Source of the DNA: Spirochaetota bacterium
Lineage (GTDB): Bacteria; Spirochaetota; Spirochaetia; B11-G9
Assembly: GCA_024280415.1 (NCBI GenBank)
Contig: JAJRQE010000100.1
Location: forward strand, 1 to 33,485
Reading direction: 5' to 3'
DNA: 33,485 nt
Shown here: positions 22,243 through 32,051 of the stretch, piece after piece
Layout of the letters: every line of letters begins with the position of its first letter
How positions within the stretch are numbered: position 1 is the stretch's first letter
Notes under the pieces: generated by a model
Told to the model about the DNA's origin: nothing
The model's input: only the letters and a program-made list of their open reading frames with translations
Databases searched by the model: none
Made by a program: the position numbers and the translations under genes

Positions 22243-25200
22243 TTAAAATGAAAGTTTTACAGAAATACCGGTTTCTATACCAATTTTGTAATATTTACTT
22301 ACAAGCTTATCGTCAGTTATATTTTTCTGATCAAACCCTATTCCTGCAAAAAGTGATATCCTGCCTGCTTCGGAGATAATGAGACTGCTTGTATGATTCC
22401 CCTTAAACCCGAAAGCAAGCTCTTTTCCCTCCTCTCTGTCTGCTGCGGAAAATGAGACTTTATCAACATGTTCAAAATAGGGATCATCCTGGTTTTCTCC
22501 CCTTAACAATTCCGGTATCTGAATTGTTTTTTTTAACTCAGTTCTCCACCTGTACTCACCATCTATGGTAGTATTCCACTCAAATGGATCCCATTTCCAG
22601 TTATTTGCTGCTTCAAGTCTCAGGGAACTCTCTCTGCTGACAATGAAGTTAAGAAAAATAGTATAGCTGAGATTAATAAGAGGATCATTTAAACTTTTCT
22701 CCATATAGGAATCAAAATCTCCTCGAATGGAAAAAATATTGGTAATTTCTTCTGTCTGATAAAGATCTGTAATGGGATTGGTACCCAGATTCCCGAACAG
22801 ATTGAGGGTTGTGGCTCTTGATTCCACATTTAAGCTGACAATGTCAGTAAAGGAATCATACTCCTTTTTAAGATCCCTCGAAATTTTAACATTAATTACA
22901 GAAGGAATAAAAATATCTACCGGGTCTGATCCTGCAGTTCTTGATAGAGCAAATGTTAATTCCGGATTATAGCTTGCTTTTGATTGAAGTGCAGAATAGT
23001 TTTTAAACTGAGCAGCAAAACCAGGATAGAAAATTTCCCACACAGGGATTGCTGTAAAGTAGTAAACCTGAGTTCCCAGTGCTGTAAGAGAATCTGAGGT
23101 ATCTGTAAAAAAGTTTAAGTCTGTATAAGCAGGATTGGATATAGCTGCATCTTTTTTATACCCGGGTTTGATAGTTATCCGGTAAGGACTTTCCGGAAAG
23201 AGGATGAATCTGCTTCCAACAGAGAATAATTGTTCTGTTGATAATTTTCTCTCGTCTGTTCCCTCTGTTTTACTAATAAAAGTTTCATTAAAATCGAGAA
23301 AGAGCTTTTCTCTGTTTAGACCCGGATTTAAATTTATACCTGTAGTTCTGTCGACCGGAAGTTTTCCGGGGATGTATAGGCTGTAGGATTCAGCAATTTT
23401 TTCCAGGGATGTTTTGTTTTTATATGGATTTTCAGCGCTTGTCATTTTCAGATCTATCCATGAGTCCAAAAACAGACCCTGAGGCCATTTACTATTTGAG
23501 GATATCCCCCATGACCTTATGAGATTATTATTCGTATAAAACGATCCCAGTTTTAATATTAAGGAAGTATTTCCTGAATTTACTTTTAATCCATTCTCTC
23601 TGGTGACAGAATTTATCATAGGGATATTTATTTCACTATAACTGTCTTCAAATGTTAATCTGTTACCCAGAATGGGTAAGATAAAAGAAAACCCAGGAGA
23701 CGCATATAAGATATTATCCCTCCATTGGAGATTTAAAGTTCCGGCTGCAGTCATGGAAAGAATCTTTAAAGCAAAATCTGTGGCTGTAGAGATCTCCGAT
23801 ACCCTGTTATTTGCAAATCCCGTAGCAAACTCTTTTCCCGAAATCTGTGATGAATTTGTAAATTTGAAGTTGCTGATCAGTGGTTTATCCCTGTAGCTGA
23901 GGAGCGTACCGGGAAATTTGTAGTCAAAAAATGATCTGCCTGCAGCACTTATTCCTATGACCGGATCTTTCAGATGGATCTCGTCAATGAGTAGCTGCCC
24001 CCCTGTGGTGCAGAGAGCCTCCAGGGATATAAGGTTTACGTTTTTCTCATTGGGATCCAGTTTGTTCCATGCTGTTACAGGGAGAGTTGAATTATCTGCA
24101 GTTAAGATCCCTGTCCAGTAATCCAGGGTGTACTTTATCCATGAAGGACTTTCAATTGGTTGAAATGTTATGGAAACTCCCCTGTTTCCGGGGCTGGTCA
24201 GAGAAAATGTCATACTGGAGGGTGCAGGTGCAGGTGTTTTCAAATAGAAATTTATAGTACTGTATTCCGAAAGATCTACAGCTTCGGTAAACTGTGACGA
24301 TTCCCAGGTTCCTCCTTTATCCCATGTAAACTCTGCTACATTCTGTACACCTGTTCCTGCTGAAAAAACAGAAGTTTCCGGGTAGGAAGAGATTAACAGC
24401 GGTTCAGGAACCGCGGAATAAATCTCGTTAATCTCCCTGGATGTCACAATCTGATCAGGATCCGGAACAGTATCCGGTTTTACTACAAATTCAGAACCAG
24501 TCAGGGTAAGAGAACTTATTAAAAGCTTTCCGGAACTGCCTGAACCATTATCCGATATAATTATTTCTAACCCTGTTACAGCTTTAAGTTTACTCCGGTC
24601 AGAAGGGGAGAGATTGAGTGTCACAGTCTGCCATGTACTGCCGGGATCGGCAAAGTCTGTACCTGCTGTTTTTGTCAGAACCAGAAGAGTTCCTTCGCCG
24701 TCAAGGACACCATTGCCGTCCAGATCTTCGCTGTCCAGTTGTCCGTTTCCTGATTTCCCGTCAGGTGAAAGGCCAACCTTCATAGTGTAAGTGGAATCGT
24801 TAAAGTTAAAACCTGAACCGTACTGGGATAATTCTCTGTCAAGAAGTGTGTCATTATCAAGATCCTCAGCAAGTTTCCCTATTCTGACATAGGCGGTAAT
24901 ATTCCCGGAAGAGGAAATATGCTTCCACTGGAAAGAAATTGCCTGAGTTCCCGAAAGGTCGAGTGGATCAGAACCCAGGGTTAAAGGTATTCTGCCACCG
25001 GTCCACTCATTTATTGCCAGGTCATAATCCAGAACAACAGCATCTCCCTCGGTTTCAGAACCTGTTCCTGCAATGTAGGGGCCTGTACGTCCTCCATCTT
25101 TATAGGAGTAGTTCTGGTCAGCAGGGATTTCCCAGTCATAGTCCTTTAGAACCGACCCCCCGGCAGCATCATAGTTATGATAATCCTTGTAGTATAGAGA

Positions 25201-27015
25201 ACCCCTTGTTCCTGTAGTAACCCCTGTCTCAGGAGGGGCGGCAGGGTAGAGAAAATCAGAGGAAAGAGGTATATCAAATCCCTTCCTGTTCATACCTGCA
25301 AGACGGAGGATTCCTGTCGTATTAGGGTTGTAAAGGCTTATTCCAGCGTCCAGCCTGAAAGTCAGTTTTTCTCCTTCATAGGTTAACCCGCCTGTACCAA
25401 GAATTGATCCTCCGGATTTGCCGGGTTTATCAATATACTTTGATTCCAGGATATTCCATCTTAGCCCGGCTCCAACTTCCATCTTGAATTTATCTGAAAA
25501 ATTAAATTTCGATCCGAAACCGAGAAGAAGATCTCCTCCGTTTCCATTTTCAGAAGCAGTTCTGTAATTAATTTTAATCCCTGCATCCCCTGGAACAGGG
25601 AACAAAAATTCAAGGTTTCCGGAATCGGAATTGAAACTGTATCTGGTTTCTTTAATACCGTTAACAGTAACGGAAATCGATCCTTCCAGAACATCTTCAC
25701 CCAGATTATATCTATCTGAAGGGATAAGTTTCTGAAAGAGAAGCTCTTTTTTAGGCGGTGTACCGGTAAGACCTCTGTCGGGTTCATATATTAAACTATC
25801 CGGTCCTATGGTGTCGGACAGGGGATATCTGTTTCCTGGATTTCTCAAAGAATCTCCGGAATAGAGTAATCTCAACAGACCTGACTCAGATTCCGGAACA
25901 ATATTTAAAGGAACTCCGGTGGTGAGATTCTTAGCTGTCAGATCAGCCCTGAAGAGTGACGGATCCGAGGGAAGAGAATAGGGCAGGGAATAGAAGCTTA
26001 ATATTTCAAATGGAGAAAATACACCAGGTTCATAGAGAAGAAGAGACTGTTCAGAATCTATAGTTAATGACCACGAATCCATATCAATTCCCAGATATTC
26101 TTCTGTAGTACCAAACTGGAACTGATCCGTTCCTGTTATATCAAGTGTACCTGTGGTTCCTGCACCGAGTCCGTCTGAGTCCCGGGCCAGAAATCCGATG
26201 CCAAGGGAGGAGTTCCCTACAGGAAGACCCCCTTTGGAATAGCTGACAGCAGCACGCACATTAAGGGGGGTTCTGAAAAATACCAGTCCTTCCTCTGCAG
26301 ATATCACTGCATCCGAACTGTCAGCTTTTCTAAATCCATTATTGTCTTCGATATAGACAACGAGATTATCTACATTACTGTCAGGAAGGACAAAGAACCT
26401 GCCTCTGACATAGCTTTCAGGACTGATTCTTGTAGAATCAACCTCATATTTACCAATATAGTTTTTCTCCTGCAGCTCTGCAGGATCAAAGCGAATCATA
26501 ATCTGGTGTTCCCCTCTGTCTGTTCCAAACAGAGCCATTCCTCCAAAGGAGCCTGAGGAAGCCTCAGGGATATTCAAATATGAGTACTCACCGTAACCTA
26601 TATCGGTGTTCCCAAATCTGATACTCCTTAGAAACGTATCTTCCTGAGACTCATAGCCGAAGAGAATTGTATTCAGTTTGTAGTTATCTATAAAAGATGC
26701 ATCAAAGAAATAGCTGTGCATAAGCCAGAGGGAAATTAAAAGATCCGGTGTATTTGTGAACTGCAGACCCGAGGTCATACCCGGAAATGGATCTGATTTA
26801 ACTGTTTTATCATTGGAATTCCATGAAAATCCGAAACCCCATTTCAATTCCGTCTCCCATGAACCTGTAAGAAAGAGATCAACGTCTTCATCGTTGATTT
26901 TGGCCGAAAAAACAGAAACCGGAGCTTCTTCCCCTGGAAGGAGAACTGTCTGAGGAAAAATTACCCGAGGTACAAACATAAATATAATAAAAAACAGTTT
27001 AATATAGTTTGTCAT
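22243..27015 (-). CDS. Very large outer-membrane/surface protein with two CBM-like modules, SprA-like layout
   Basis: 1590 residues from the ATG at 27015, where MTNYIKLFFIIFMFVPRVIF forms a signal peptide; a GTG 37 codons earlier would bury it and overlap the divergent gene. The N-terminal third is beta-rich with VRGRFFVLPDSNVDNLVVYI. The middle holds two jelly-roll-like modules: one from DLSGTQAISFQWK to KLLISSLTLTG (about 24960 down to 24500), one from DLSEYSTINFYLK to GGQLLIDEIHLKDP (about 24280 down to 23965). The first carries two Asp-rich calcium-type loops, DLDNDTLLD and DLDGNGVLD. The last third resembles a large barrel and ends in SVKLSF. This layout recalls SprA, the giant type IX secretion barrel of Bacteroidota, but homology is not shown here. 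Confidence 0.72.
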   Translation of the reverse strand: MTNYIKLFFIIFMFVPRVIFPQTVLLPGEEAPVSVFSAKINDEDVDLFLTGSWETELKWGFGFSWNSNDKTVKSDPFPGMTSGLQFTNTPDLLISLWLMHSYFFDASFIDNYKLNTILFGYESQEDTFLRSIRFGNTDIGYGEYSYLNIPEASSGSFGGMALFGTDRGEHQIMIRFDPAELQEKNYIGKYEVDSTRISPESYVRGRFFVLPDSNVDNLVVYIEDNNGFRKADSSDAVISAEEGLVFFRTPLNVRAAVSYSKGGLPVGNSSLGIGFLARDSDGLGAGTTGTLDITGTDQFQFGTTEEYLGIDMDSWSLTIDSEQSLLLYEPGVFSPFEILSFYSLPYSLPSDPSLFRADLTAKNLTTGVPLNIVPESESGLLRLLYSGDSLRNPGNRYPLSDTIGPDSLIYEPDRGLTGTPPKKELLFQKLIPSDRYNLGEDVLEGSISVTVNGIKETRYSFNSDSGNLEFLFPVPGDAGIKINYRTASENGNGGDLLLGFGSKFNFSDKFKMEVGAGLRWNILESKYIDKPGKSGGSILGTGGLTYEGEKLTFRLDAGISLYNPNTTGILRLAGMNRKGFDIPLSSDFLYPAAPPETGVTTGTRGSLYYKDYHNYDAAGGSVLKDYDWEIPADQNYSYKDGGRTGPYIAGTGSETEGDAVVLDYDLAINEWTGGRIPLTLGSDPLDLSGTQAISFQWKHISSSGNITAYVRIGKLAEDLDNDTLLDRELSQYGSGFNFNDSTYTMKVGLSPDGKSGNGQLDSEDLDGNGVLDGEGTLLVLTKTAGTDFADPGSTWQTVTLNLSPSDRSKLKAVTGLEIIISDNGSGSSGKLLISSLTLTGSEFVVKPDTVPDPDQIVTSREINEIYSAVPEPLLISSYPETSVFSAGTGVQNVAEFTWDKGGTWESSQFTEAVDLSEYSTINFYLKTPAPAPSSMTFSLTSPGNRGVSITFQPIESPSWIKYTLDYWTGILTADNSTLPVTAWNKLDPNEKNVNLISLEALCTTGGQLLIDEIHLKDPVIGISAAGRSFFDYKFPGTLLSYRDKPLISNFKFTNSSQISGKEFATGFANNRVSEISTATDFALKILSMTAAGTLNLQWRDNILYASPGFSFILPILGNRLTFEDSYSEINIPMINSVTRENGLKVNSGNTSLILKLGSFYTNNNLIRSWGISSNSKWPQGLFLDSWIDLKMTSAENPYKNKTSLEKIAESYSLYIPGKLPVDRTTGINLNPGLNREKLFLDFNETFISKTEGTDERKLSTEQLFSVGSRFILFPESPYRITIKPGYKKDAAISNPAYTDLNFFTDTSDSLTALGTQVYYFTAIPVWEIFYPGFAAQFKNYSALQSKASYNPELTFALSRTAGSDPVDIFIPSVINVKISRDLKKEYDSFTDIVSLNVESRATTLNLFGNLGTNPITDLYQTEEITNIFSIRGDFDSYMEKSLNDPLINLSYTIFLNFIVSRESSLRLEAANNWKWDPFEWNTTIDGEYRWRTELKKTIQIPELLRGENQDDPYFEHVDKVSFSAADREEGKELAFGFKGNHTSSLIISEAGRISLFAGIGFDQKNITDDKLVSKYYKIGIETGISVKLSF

Positions 27016-27029
27016 TGTGTTATTCTTAT

Positions 27030-27041
27030 CAGTATATACTG
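27030..27041. promoter_or_regulatory. Perfect palindrome in a divergent gap
   Basis: CAGTATATACTG is a perfect 12-base palindrome in the 50-base gap between the divergent starts at 27015 and 27066. It could be an operator shared by both genes, or simply part of AT-rich promoter DNA (TATACT resembles a -10). A related GGTATATACTGG occurs at 30027-30038. Confidence 0.35.
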
Positions 27042-27065
27042 TAACACAGGCTGAGAAAAATATAT

Positions 27066-27986
27066 ATGAGTCAAGAAGAAGAAAAAGCAAAATTATTTGT
27101 AGCACGTCTCCTGTCCAATCCTTCATTGAGGTCTCTAAACCCGCTTCAGAGAGAGGAGCAGATATTAAGTTTTATGGAGATGAATGCTCAGCAGCTTCTC
27201 CCTACACTTTCATCAGGAGCCTTTTTCCCGGGAGAATCATGGTTTAAAATACATAGTTTACTGAAAGAAGTTCTGGGTACTTTAATTGACGGGTCTCTTC
27301 TTCCGGGAGTTCAGAGACAAATTTACGATAAAATTAATTTTTCCTTTCTATCTGTTTTTGGATCCCAAAAAGGGTTTCAGGATAAAACAAAGGATGGAAT
27401 ATTTACCTTTGTCAAACATCTTTTATCTGTTCCCGAGGGAAGAAAGGCTTTTTCAGGGAGTTACAATGCCATTGGAAGACAGATAGTCGACAAATATATT
27501 GAAGCTGTATTTAATGATCATTCCTATGTCCATTTTGAACTTATAAAGGTACAGAGACTTAAAATGAGTAAGGAAGAGATTCAGAATTTCTTAAAAGTTT
27601 CTCTTCTTCTGAGGCCGGTTATTTATACCTTCGGCACCAATATGCATAAGGATAATTCGAGTGGTATTATTACAACTTCTTTTGCCGAGAAAGTTGAGGA
27701 ATCTCTTCGGAAAGAGATTCCCTCTCTGCCTGAAGCACTGATAAAGAGTGCTGTCGGAAGTAATGTATCCTTTAACGATCATAAGTATCTTCAGGCGACC
27801 TCAAGGCTGACATCCATTATGAGTTCTCTGGCTCAATCCATAAAATCGGATATTACAGTTGACCGTGGAGCATCGACTCCTGAAAAAAGCTGGTTTAGTA
27901 TTGCAAGACGTAATTATAAATATTTTGGCTGGGACATTAAAATGCTGGATGAACTTTACAGATTTTCCGCTGAGAATAATTGGTAG
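27066..27986 (+). CDS. Uncharacterised soluble protein paired with the voltage-sensor gene
   Basis: 306 residues, no family recognised. It has no signal peptide or membrane segment and looks mainly helical. The start region is charged (MSQEEEKAKLFVARLLSNP), and the C-terminus has an aromatic stretch (SWFSIARRNYKYFGW). It ends 10 bases before the voltage-sensor gene on the same strand, with GGTGAT between, so the two are probably one transcript and it may be a cytoplasmic partner. The ribosome binding site is poor. It is divergent from the large surface protein. The function is not known. Confidence 0.78.
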   Translation: MSQEEEKAKLFVARLLSNPSLRSLNPLQREEQILSFMEMNAQQLLPTLSSGAFFPGESWFKIHSLLKEVLGTLIDGSLLPGVQRQIYDKINFSFLSVFGSQKGFQDKTKDGIFTFVKHLLSVPEGRKAFSGSYNAIGRQIVDKYIEAVFNDHSYVHFELIKVQRLKMSKEEIQNFLKVSLLLRPVIYTFGTNMHKDNSSGIITTSFAEKVEESLRKEIPSLPEALIKSAVGSNVSFNDHKYLQATSRLTSIMSSLAQSIKSDITVDRGASTPEKSWFSIARRNYKYFGWDIKMLDELYRFSAENNW

Positions 27987-27996
27987 GTGATTTAAT

Positions 27997-29112
27997 ATGC
28001 AGAGTAAAATAAAAAACTGGGCAGAATCGATAGTAATAGTTGCAATCTTTCTTGTTCTTATTCAAACTTTCCTTGAAGATTTTGCAGTTTTAACAGGATG
28101 GAGCTGGAATACACGAAGAATACTTATATTTACGAGTCTTGGTTTTGATCTATTTTTTTCAATAGAGTTTCTGACCAGATTTTTTTCAGGAATGATGAAA
28201 AAAGAAGCCGGGCGTTACTTTATGGAAGGAAAAGGATGGATAGATTTTCTTGCTTCCATTCCTCTCCTCCTCTTAAACAGCGGACCTGCTTTTTTTGCAC
28301 TGATTACAGGAAGTGGTTTCTTCTTTGGTATGGGCGGGCTTCTTAATATTCTTAAGATAATTAAGGCTATTCGGATTGCACGTATCCTTAGACTGCTCCG
28401 CATACTAAAAATATTCAGACAGATTAAACATACCGGAAGCAGAATGGCTCAAAGACATGTTGCAAAAATTACCACTTTAAGTATTACCACCTTTGTTTTT
28501 ACTCTACTTGTTTTTTCTATTTTTACCGGGTTTGTTTCTTTACCTACTTCGGAAAGCAAGGTTATGAAAAATGAAAAAGCAGGAATAAGCAATTTTGTTA
28601 CAAATATAAGTCAGGAAAGACCTTCTGTTGCAGCCCGGAATTTTGCAGATTATGATTCCGACCTGCTTGTTGTCAAACAAAAAGGGGAGACTTTATATAC
28701 CAGATACGATAATCCGTTTTACTCTACGGTTTTCGGTCCTGGTGACTATCAGTACTATAAAACTGCAGATTATGAGTTTTTCTTTGATACCAGGGAACTT
28801 TCACAAATACAGGCTTTAAATAATATATTGTTTTTTGTCATTGTAGTTATGAGTGTTCTTGTCTTCTTAATATATTACAGTCCTCACTTTGCCCTTACGG
28901 TAACAGATCCAATACATGTTATGCGGAGAGGATTTATGGAGAATGACTATAATCTTGAGGTTAAAATACCGGAATTGTTCCGGGAGGATGATATATATCA
29001 GCTGGGGAAGGCCTATAATGAAAAATATCTTCCAATGAAAGTCAGACAGGAAGAAATTTCAGAGGGACAGACCAGTCTGACTATGGATGATTTTGAAGAT
29101 CTGTTTAAATAA
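27997..29112 (+). CDS. Voltage-sensor-domain membrane protein with periplasmic loop and HAMP-like segment
   Basis: 371 residues. Residues 10-145 form a canonical voltage sensor: S1 about 10-29; S2 about 44-64 with E57; S3 with WIDFLASIP (D83); and S4, where K or R occurs at every third position, K120, K123, R126, R129, R132, R135, K138, R141 and K144. A fifth membrane segment spans about 160-182. Where an ion channel would have a short pore loop there are about 90 soluble residues (183-272) and no TVGYG or similar filter. A sixth segment (about 276-298) runs into a HAMP-like stretch (DPIHVMRRGF to DDIYQLGKAYNEKY, about 304-344) and a short acidic tail. It may be a potential-sensing signal protein rather than a potassium channel. 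Databases may label it 'ion transporter'. Confidence 0.83.
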   Translation: MQSKIKNWAESIVIVAIFLVLIQTFLEDFAVLTGWSWNTRRILIFTSLGFDLFFSIEFLTRFFSGMMKKEAGRYFMEGKGWIDFLASIPLLLLNSGPAFFALITGSGFFFGMGGLLNILKIIKAIRIARILRLLRILKIFRQIKHTGSRMAQRHVAKITTLSITTFVFTLLVFSIFTGFVSLPTSESKVMKNEKAGISNFVTNISQERPSVAARNFADYDSDLLVVKQKGETLYTRYDNPFYSTVFGPGDYQYYKTADYEFFFDTRELSQIQALNNILFFVIVVMSVLVFLIYYSPHFALTVTDPIHVMRRGFMENDYNLEVKIPELFREDDIYQLGKAYNEKYLPMKVRQEEISEGQTSLTMDDFEDLFK

Positions 29113-29139
29113 AAACAGATTAACCTCTCTAAATCTGTT
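29111..29139 (-). terminator. Terminator of the ComFB-like gene
   Basis: On the minus strand AACAGATT (29139-29132) pairs with AATCTGTT (29121-29114) over a ten-base loop, followed by a T run (29115-29111). The gene's stop codon TAG (29131-29129) lies at the edge of the loop. It also separates the convergent voltage-sensor gene. Confidence 0.6.
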
Positions 29140-29830
29140 CCTGGGATCTCTTGAAAAGATAGAGACCATCCATTTTTATTGTGGTTCCAATAGATGATGT
29201 TGTTACAATATTTTTTTCACTTTTAAGTTTTATTTCGAAAAAGTGACTTACAGGATCGTATCTTTTATCATCAATTCGCAGTTCAAAATGAAACACTCTT
29301 TCTTCATCTACTTCGTCCGCTGCTATTGGTGCCGGTCTGAAGGAGTAGCTTCCTCTGATACTCTTTACTATAGTAAACGGGTTCTGCCAGGTATTATCGA
29401 TCATCTGGGCAGGTGAATCCTCAAAATAAAGACTTATAATTGCATTTTCCACAGGAACAAAATTATCACCTAAAAGTACAGTTCCAATAATAGAAGGGAA
29501 ATTGAACAGATATCTTGTAGAGATATTTCTTGTAGTTTCCTTCTTGTTATAGTAGGGGCGCTTGTTTTCACTGATTTTTTTAATTCCGGCGTTGATAAGT
29601 GTCATCAGATCAACTTTTTTCTGAATTAGATCATGATAGTTGTCCTCGAAATGGAGAAGACCCCTGCCGGAAATAATATATTCAGGTTTAATTCTGTTTA
29701 GGACATAACAGGCAACATCGAGTCTGCACTGAAGGCAGTCTGCCATTTCGAAACCCTCTTTCCTCTTATCTTCAAATATTTCATTTACAGTATCAACAAC
29801 TATGCTCTCCATAATGTTATGAACATTCAT
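29129..29830 (-). CDS. ComFB-domain protein with C-terminal beta-domain
   Basis: 233 residues. The N-terminal part (about 1-90) matches the late competence ComFB family: MNVHNIMESIVVDTVNEIF, then CLQC (C32, C35) in CLQCRLDVACYVLNRIKPEY. ComFB proteins have recently been described as receptors of cyclic dinucleotides, mainly in cyanobacteria. The C-terminal part (about 105-225) is not found in simple ComFB proteins; GTVLLGDNFVPVENAIISLY and GSYSFRP resemble a carboxypeptidase-regulatory, Ig-like fold. GGAGG lies 8 bases before the ATG. It is divergent from the lipoprotein-PilZ genes, so a cyclic-di-GMP role is plausible but inferred. Confidence 0.8.
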   Translation of the reverse strand: MNVHNIMESIVVDTVNEIFEDKRKEGFEMADCLQCRLDVACYVLNRIKPEYIISGRGLLHFEDNYHDLIQKKVDLMTLINAGIKKISENKRPYYNKKETTRNISTRYLFNFPSIIGTVLLGDNFVPVENAIISLYFEDSPAQMIDNTWQNPFTIVKSIRGSYSFRPAPIAADEVDEERVFHFELRIDDKRYDPVSHFFEIKLKSEKNIVTTSSIGTTIKMDGLYLFKRSQEQI

Positions 29831-30800: not shown

Positions 30801-32051
30801 ATGGGAACTGAAATGGGACGTATTGAACAGGAATTTATTCTTAATAATATTATAGAAAAAAAACTTCCGGTAAAACTCCACATAAGGAAAAATGAGATAG
30901 AAGGTATTTTTCTTTCTATGGATAATAATCTTTTGTTTTCGAGCAGTAATTCTCTAATAGGCGAAATAGAAAAAGGGGAGTATGTTAATTTTTTCTTTGC
31001 TTTTTTTAGTCATACCATGACTTTTAAAACGATAGTTTTGTCGGAGGGTAATCCTCTTAAACTCAAAGTTCCTGATCATATCTATAAAAATCTTAAAAGA
31101 AAGTTTGTCCGGGTTCCTACGGGATCAGATATTGAACTATCTTTTACCCTCGAAAATGCCAGGATAGTTCTCGATTTTCCTAAAACTCAGGAATATGAAT
31201 CCCTGGATTCAGAAATTTTTTCCGATGATTTTAATCTGGTGGATCTTAAGGACTTGTTTTCACAGTTTAAGACCAAATCCAGTCAGTTTGCTTCCGGTTC
31301 TGAGATAATTATGCTTCGATCCAGGGAACCTGGAACATTTGAAGAACGAATTATTGCAGAAACAGGAAAGAGTTTGTTCATCCCGGAAACCACAGCTCCT
31401 TTTCCGAATAACGAAAAGGTTGACAGCGAGTACGTAATAACTGAGGAGATGTTTCTGGATAAACATGGTGATGAGATAGTTATCCATGGAAAAAATCTGA
31501 GAGAAATGGAAATTCTTTTAAAGGAAAAATACAGAAGCGGGATATACGCAGAGTTGTTTACACCTGTTATTTATCATGAGTATGCCATTGGGTATCTTCA
31601 TCTGGTGAATGATGAGAAAAGGAAAAGACCTTTTACCAGTCAGACTCTGAACTTTGCAAGGGAATTTTCCAGAATCCTTGCATTCTCTCTGGAGAAACAG
31701 GGGTATTTTACCGGGGGTAAGCTGGCTGAAAGTCAGTACAATCCTGAAATAATTGATATAAGTGCTTCCGGACTCATGTTCACCCATCCTGAAAAGAAAT
31801 TATCCGAGATTCTTGGGATGTATGGTGACCTTAAACTCTCTCTTAAGATTGGTCCGAGAAAAATGGAGATGTTATCCCGGGTAATGAGGAAGTATAAATC
31901 AAAGGATATCTATTTTTACGGCTTGCAGTTTCTTGAAATAGAACCTGAGGATTTCAGATTCCTTTTTGATTATGTTTACGGAAGACCATTTTCGGATGAC
32001 GATGATAGGTTTTGGGAAGGCGGTGCTGAACCTCCTGAACTAAATTTTTAA
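30801..32051 (+). CDS. PilZ-type protein interrupted by a GAF-like insertion
   Basis: 416 residues. An N-terminal beta domain (about 1-95) resembles the YcgR-type N domain that precedes PilZ. The first PilZ c-di-GMP-binding motif RxxxR is R100-KFV-R104 (KRKFVRVP). The second, DxSxxG, is D319-IS-AS-G324 (IIDISASGLMF), followed by the expected barrel end (RVMRKYKSKDIYFYGLQFLE). The two motifs are normally about 20-30 residues apart; here about 215 lie between, and part of that insert (about 228-302) reads like a GAF domain (VIYHEYAIGYLHLVND, KRPFTSQTLNFAREFSRILA). The protein may combine cyclic-di-GMP with another small-molecule signal. No membrane segment is seen. An acidic tail ends the protein. 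The partial gene follows after 42 bases. Confidence 0.8.
   Translation: MGTEMGRIEQEFILNNIIEKKLPVKLHIRKNEIEGIFLSMDNNLLFSSSNSLIGEIEKGEYVNFFFAFFSHTMTFKTIVLSEGNPLKLKVPDHIYKNLKRKFVRVPTGSDIELSFTLENARIVLDFPKTQEYESLDSEIFSDDFNLVDLKDLFSQFKTKSSQFASGSEIIMLRSREPGTFEERIIAETGKSLFIPETTAPFPNNEKVDSEYVITEEMFLDKHGDEIVIHGKNLREMEILLKEKYRSGIYAELFTPVIYHEYAIGYLHLVNDEKRKRPFTSQTLNFAREFSRILAFSLEKQGYFTGGKLAESQYNPEIIDISASGLMFTHPEKKLSEILGMYGDLKLSLKIGPRKMEMLSRVMRKYKSKDIYFYGLQFLEIEPEDFRFLFDYVYGRPFSDDDDRFWEGGAEPPELNF

Follow-up and report, generated by a model that had tools for sequence, protein, structure and literature searches.

A putative pore-less voltage-sensor receptor with a HAMP-like relay and a conserved partner gene in Spirochaetota

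Many spirochaetes encode a membrane protein in which a voltage-sensor domain is followed by two further transmembrane helices, a soluble domain held between them and a HAMP-like cytoplasmic segment. Here, we describe one such protein, encoded in a window of 33,485 nucleotides (the whole stretch of DNA analysed, contig JAJRQE010000100.1 of a Spirochaetota bacterium), and suggest that it is a pore-less, voltage-modulated transmembrane receptor that would signal through the HAMP-like relay to P0002, the product of the adjoining gene. Judging from sequence evidence, we give this reading a probability of roughly 0.6. It agrees with the original prediction, in which the protein senses membrane potential as a receptor and relays it to the cytoplasm, perhaps via the 306-residue neighbour, and the family-wide lack of a pore, the HAMP-like tail and the conserved partner all argue for it. 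The relevant features of the window are as follows.

27066..27986, + strand: partner gene P0002, encoding a 306-residue soluble, mainly helical protein, directly upstream of the receptor gene
27997..29112, + strand: VSD-HAMP receptor gene (P0001), an open reading frame of 371 residues
28018..28095, + strand: S1 transmembrane helix, residues ~8-33 (hydropathy, low-confidence model helix 2-33, alignment)
28114..28194, + strand: S2 helix, residues ~40-66, with D51, F54, E57 and R61 (conservation)
28234..28308, + strand: S3 helix, residues ~80-104, GWIDFLASIP, with D83 (conservation, alignment to Kv1.2 S3)
28336..28434, + strand: S4 voltage-sensor helix, residues 114-146, nine K/R at spacing 3 (conservation)
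28459..28539, + strand: S5 or receptor TM1 helix, residues ~155-181 (hydropathy, model helix 149-180)
28540..28794, + strand: extracytoplasmic alpha/beta domain, residues ~182-266 (weak model, H-H-E-E-E-E)
28795..28878, + strand: S6 or receptor TM2 helix, residues ~267-294 (hydropathy, model helix 266-303)
28885..29046, + strand: HAMP-like relay, residues ~297-350, TDPI..M..G ... DDIYQLG.AYN..LP.K.R (hhalign)
29047..29109, + strand: C-terminal tail, residues ~351-371, with the acidic end DDFEDLFK (sequence)

By its residues and their conservation, the N-terminal half of the protein is a textbook voltage-sensor domain. In the hydropathy profile, S1-S3 stand out, S4 is less pronounced, and two strong helices follow at 154-186 and 267-303. 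The expected Pfam Ion_trans match was obtained over residues 8-202 (E 9.8e-9) and is shared by 50 of 53 family members, and the family profile aligns with S2-S4 of Kv1.2 (E 1e-3). S4, which reads RIARILRLLRILKIFR, carries basic residues at exactly the three-residue spacing originally described (K120, K123, R126, R129, R132, R135, K138, R141 and K144), a pattern that never arose in 100,000 shuffles of residues 111-150. The S2 glutamate and S3 aspartate named in the original prediction are likewise in place as E57 and D83, together with the charge-transfer position F54 in S2 and an acidic outer end of S1 (E27/D28). D51, F54 and E57 of S2 occur without exception in A2; among 72 homologues, F54 is kept in 67, D83 in 65 and E57 in 60. 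At least seven of the nine S4 charges are found in 54 of these 72 aligned sequences, and 54 are basic at all of positions 126, 129, 132, 135 and 138.

Between the two strong helices, where a pore would be sought, hydropathy places about 85 soluble residues (~182-266), close to the 90 or so that had been predicted, and no filter motif occurs in the S5-S6 stretch of the window protein. The survey of homologues extends this to the family: in the 72 sequences checked, a filter motif was matched once, by a chance GFGD inside the soluble domain. This domain was compared with the dCache_1 and sCache_2 sets of its own genome and scored 0.1-0.2% (hhalign).

Structure prediction bears mostly on the order of secondary-structure elements. 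AlphaFold was given five close sequences, and its output was used for this order only: the monomer of the window protein, modelled with four near relatives, gave the helix and strand order of the extracytoplasmic domain (H-H-E-E-E-E), but at an overall confidence too low to serve as a structural check (pLDDT 51), and a second model reached pLDDT 42. The extracytoplasmic domain is the best-scored part of the weak model (block pLDDT ~52-71). Foldseek returned no meaningful match; with models this poor, the HAMP fold and the oligomer are not seen in three dimensions.

The HAMP-like assignment comes from profile-profile comparison, in which slices of the family alignment were set against a reference profile built from 29 HAMP domains taken from the organism's own genome. 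Residues 296-371 matched this profile over 49 columns with a probability of 93% (hhalign, P 3.2e-7), and the two helices fall into the register expected of HAMP, helix 1 by its P-I and helix 2 by its DE..L...YN. The score of 35.3 exceeds that of all 100 column-shuffled controls (best 20.3), and the voltage-sensor and periplasmic slices, used as negative controls, gave 0.1-0.4%. Searches of single sequences told otherwise: Pfam HAMP has no match in the window protein and is missing, at E<=1, among the matches listed for 53 family members. The predicted HAMP-like segment is thus upheld by profile comparison and not by Pfam, and the match with its controls supports a tail that is related to HAMP, divergent and distinct from the canonical Pfam domain. 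Past this segment, no known output domain (MCP signalling, kinase or cyclase) was found, only a tail of ~20 residues, whose DDFEDLFK ending is without exception in close relatives.

The family is spread across Spirochaetota. With the window protein as query, matches were found in 107 of 393 Spirochaetota genomes; the profile reached 160 genomes, some of its matches being ordinary Ion_trans channels. P0002 is present in 124 genomes. A single contig scan with a close-relative query gave spirochaetal matches throughout, and a plasmid search gave none.

The gene for the 306-residue protein is the sole neighbour of the receptor gene that is conserved phylum-wide. In 59 of 79 loci it immediately precedes the receptor gene in the same orientation, with a median gap of -4 bp and mostly an overlap or a spacing of at most 20 bp, and the pairing reaches Borrelia-like and Brachyspira-like genomes, so called for their genome size (about 1 Mb in the Borrelia-like ones) and gene order; other neighbours vary from family to family. 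P0002 has a C-terminal motif, DRGA..P.KSWF.IAR, and profile searches found no relatives in Pfam, NCBIfam or the PDB. Three further genes stand near the pair in the window. A 1627-residue protein without a Pfam match (22243-27126, - strand) is divergent from the pair and lies beside it in 21 loci; its true start is probably further in than listed, because the listed start overlaps the partner gene. A ComFB-domain protein (29129-29830, - strand), convergent with the pair, is conserved there in 16 loci. The third gene, at 30801-32051 (+ strand), encodes a protein with a PilZ domain.

Natural variants separate the parts of the receptor. The extracytoplasmic domain has been lost in two separate lineages, family f51 (L057-L059) and two genomes of f38 (L073, L074), all of which keep the HAMP-like tail and P0002 despite the loss; in f51, S4 is intact as well. 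Where the domain is lost, the S5-S6 loop is only 8-15 residues long and therefore leaves no room for a pore. Conversely, three members that have no tail (L066, L071 and L072) have no adjoining P0002, and for L071 and L072 no match to it occurs anywhere in the genome, although such joint losses of tail and P0002 amount to very few events. Genome G012 carries two copies (L066, L087), one ending after S6 without P0002 and the other with tail and P0002. From these comparisons, the HAMP-like tail and P0002 look like a constant core, and the voltage sensor and extracytoplasmic domain like separable inputs to it.

Other gene contexts occur. In a paralogous clade (L044, L051, L172, L173, L175, L176; families f24 and f42, 100% support in the tree), P0002 is replaced upstream by a caspase-domain protein (Peptidase_C14) with a lipoprotein-type signal peptide, and the downstream gene encodes a polysaccharide deacetylase; the HAMP-like tail is thus not always tied to P0002. 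In f49, the next gene downstream encodes a K+ channel with a T.GYGD filter and a cNMP-binding domain, followed in some cases by a Na+/Ca2+ exchanger. Such a channel or exchanger lies directly downstream in L041, L043, L050, L178 and L179, in L047 and L180-L182, and in L040 and L054. That a voltage sensor without a pore shares an operon with a genuine channel is in keeping with a role connected with membrane potential. Upstream of L047 and L180-L182, a protein of ~260 residues (with DUF218 in L047) takes the place of P0002. The Borrelia-like loci L067-L070 form an operon of HAD phosphatase, P0002, VSD-HAMP receptor and a protein of ~171 residues, convergent with a cheA-cheW/cheR-cheX-cheY operon.

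How the parts might work together can be outlined in conditional terms. The S1-S4 domain would move with membrane potential, and S4 would push the S5/S6 pair through the conserved S4-S5 linker (S.MAQRH, comprising S148 and the MAQRH segment). S5 and S6 would serve as receptor TM1 and TM2, so that the movement would pass from TM2 to the HAMP-like relay, whose change of state would control P0002, the product of the neighbouring gene in the operon. A second, optional input would come from the extracytoplasmic domain. We infer the voltage-driven movement of S4, the binding and the role of P0002 and the oligomeric state in which the receptor would act.

Three other readings have to be weighed. The protein might be a receptor for a periplasmic ligand, with S1-S4 inherited as a membrane anchor or serving as an allosteric scaffold, and no meaningful voltage sensing. 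Brachyspira-like members (L160-L163, L169), with one of the nine S4 charges and hence essentially an uncharged S4, and Borrelia-like members, with three, speak for it: both groups retain the extracytoplasmic domain, the tail and P0002, so the pair can be kept without a need for voltage sensing. Strong conservation of the S4 arginines and of F54, E57 and D83 (54-67 of 72 homologues) is difficult to reconcile with a mere scaffold, however, as is the retention of the voltage sensor in L057-L059 after the extracytoplasmic domain had gone, and we regard a pure ligand receptor as unlikely.

Conduction of ions is less probable still. A voltage-gated channel with an unrecognised pore formed from S5-S6 would account for the six-transmembrane layout, which is that of voltage-gated channels, and for an Ion_trans match that takes in S5. 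We nevertheless think it very improbable, given 72 members without a filter, an S5-S6 region that is mostly a soluble domain or, in f51 and f38, a loop too short for pore helix and filter, the HAMP-like cytoplasmic continuation, and the true K+ channel that adjoins the VSD-HAMP gene in f49. Isolated voltage-sensor domains can conduct protons, as in Hv1, and an Hv1-like proton pathway through the sensor itself might be imagined on this ground; the Hv1 signature RxWRxxR is missing from S4, which reads ILKIIKAIRIARILRLLRILKIFRQIK, and the additional transmembrane pair and HAMP-like tail would be left without a role, which makes this the most far-fetched of the readings considered.

The receptor reading that we prefer also has counterparts in known systems. 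With voltage-gated cation channels (Ion_trans, Kv1.2), the window protein shares the S1-S4 sensor, the F..E of S2, the aspartate of S3 and the R/K repeat of S4, but it differs from them in lacking pore helix and filter and in having a soluble S5-S6 connection and a HAMP-like tail. Voltage sensors that drive non-channel functions are known from eukaryotic examples. Ci-VSP/TPTE, Hv1 and SLC9C1 resemble what we propose for the window protein in that a voltage sensor without a pore domain drives such a function; unlike them, the window protein is bacterial and has six transmembrane helices, a HAMP-like relay and a separate partner. Pfam detected no PTEN-like phosphatase, CNBD or exchanger domain in the receptor and no phosphatase in P0002. 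The order of helix, extracytoplasmic domain, helix and HAMP is that of chemoreceptors and sensor kinases, whereas the four voltage-sensor helices in front, the divergent HAMP and the lack of an MCP, kinase or cyclase output set the protein apart; in contrast to those systems, a separate protein presumably receives the signal. Voltage-sensor proteins without a pore are known, as are HAMP receptors, and their bacterial union with a partner of its own is apparently new, since no report of a bacterial voltage sensor joined to HAMP with its own partner was found in the open-licence literature searched.

A connection with motility is speculative. FlhA is present in 122 of 124 P0002-bearing genomes vs 226 of 269 without P0002 (Fisher p 5e-6, with the two genome lists matched by eye and relatedness uncontrolled), and the two P0002-bearing genomes that lack FlhA are incomplete assemblies (67% and 83%). 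We consider this association weak because the FlhA-less genomes listed come from a single family and because the pair is missing from many genomes with flagella, among them those of a Treponema-like family. A part for membrane potential in spirochaete chemotaxis has long been suggested: to judge by their titles as cited elsewhere (PMC4841586), Goulbourne and Greenberg (1981, 1983) addressed membrane potential and voltage clamp in the chemotaxis of Spirochaeta aurantia. How the motors at opposite ends of the cell communicate has been described as an unsolved question, the signalling being faster than diffusion of CheY would allow (PMC7225975). That a membrane-potential receptor of mainly flagellated spirochaetes is the missing voltage reader of S. 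aurantia chemotaxis and of fast coordination between the two flagellar bundles is a doubtful proposition at present.

The conserved receptor-partner pair is amenable to gene deletion and to a charge-neutralisation test. Because it unites a pore-less sensor, a HAMP-like relay and a partner gene, the VSD-HAMP receptor may be how many spirochaetes read their own membrane voltage.
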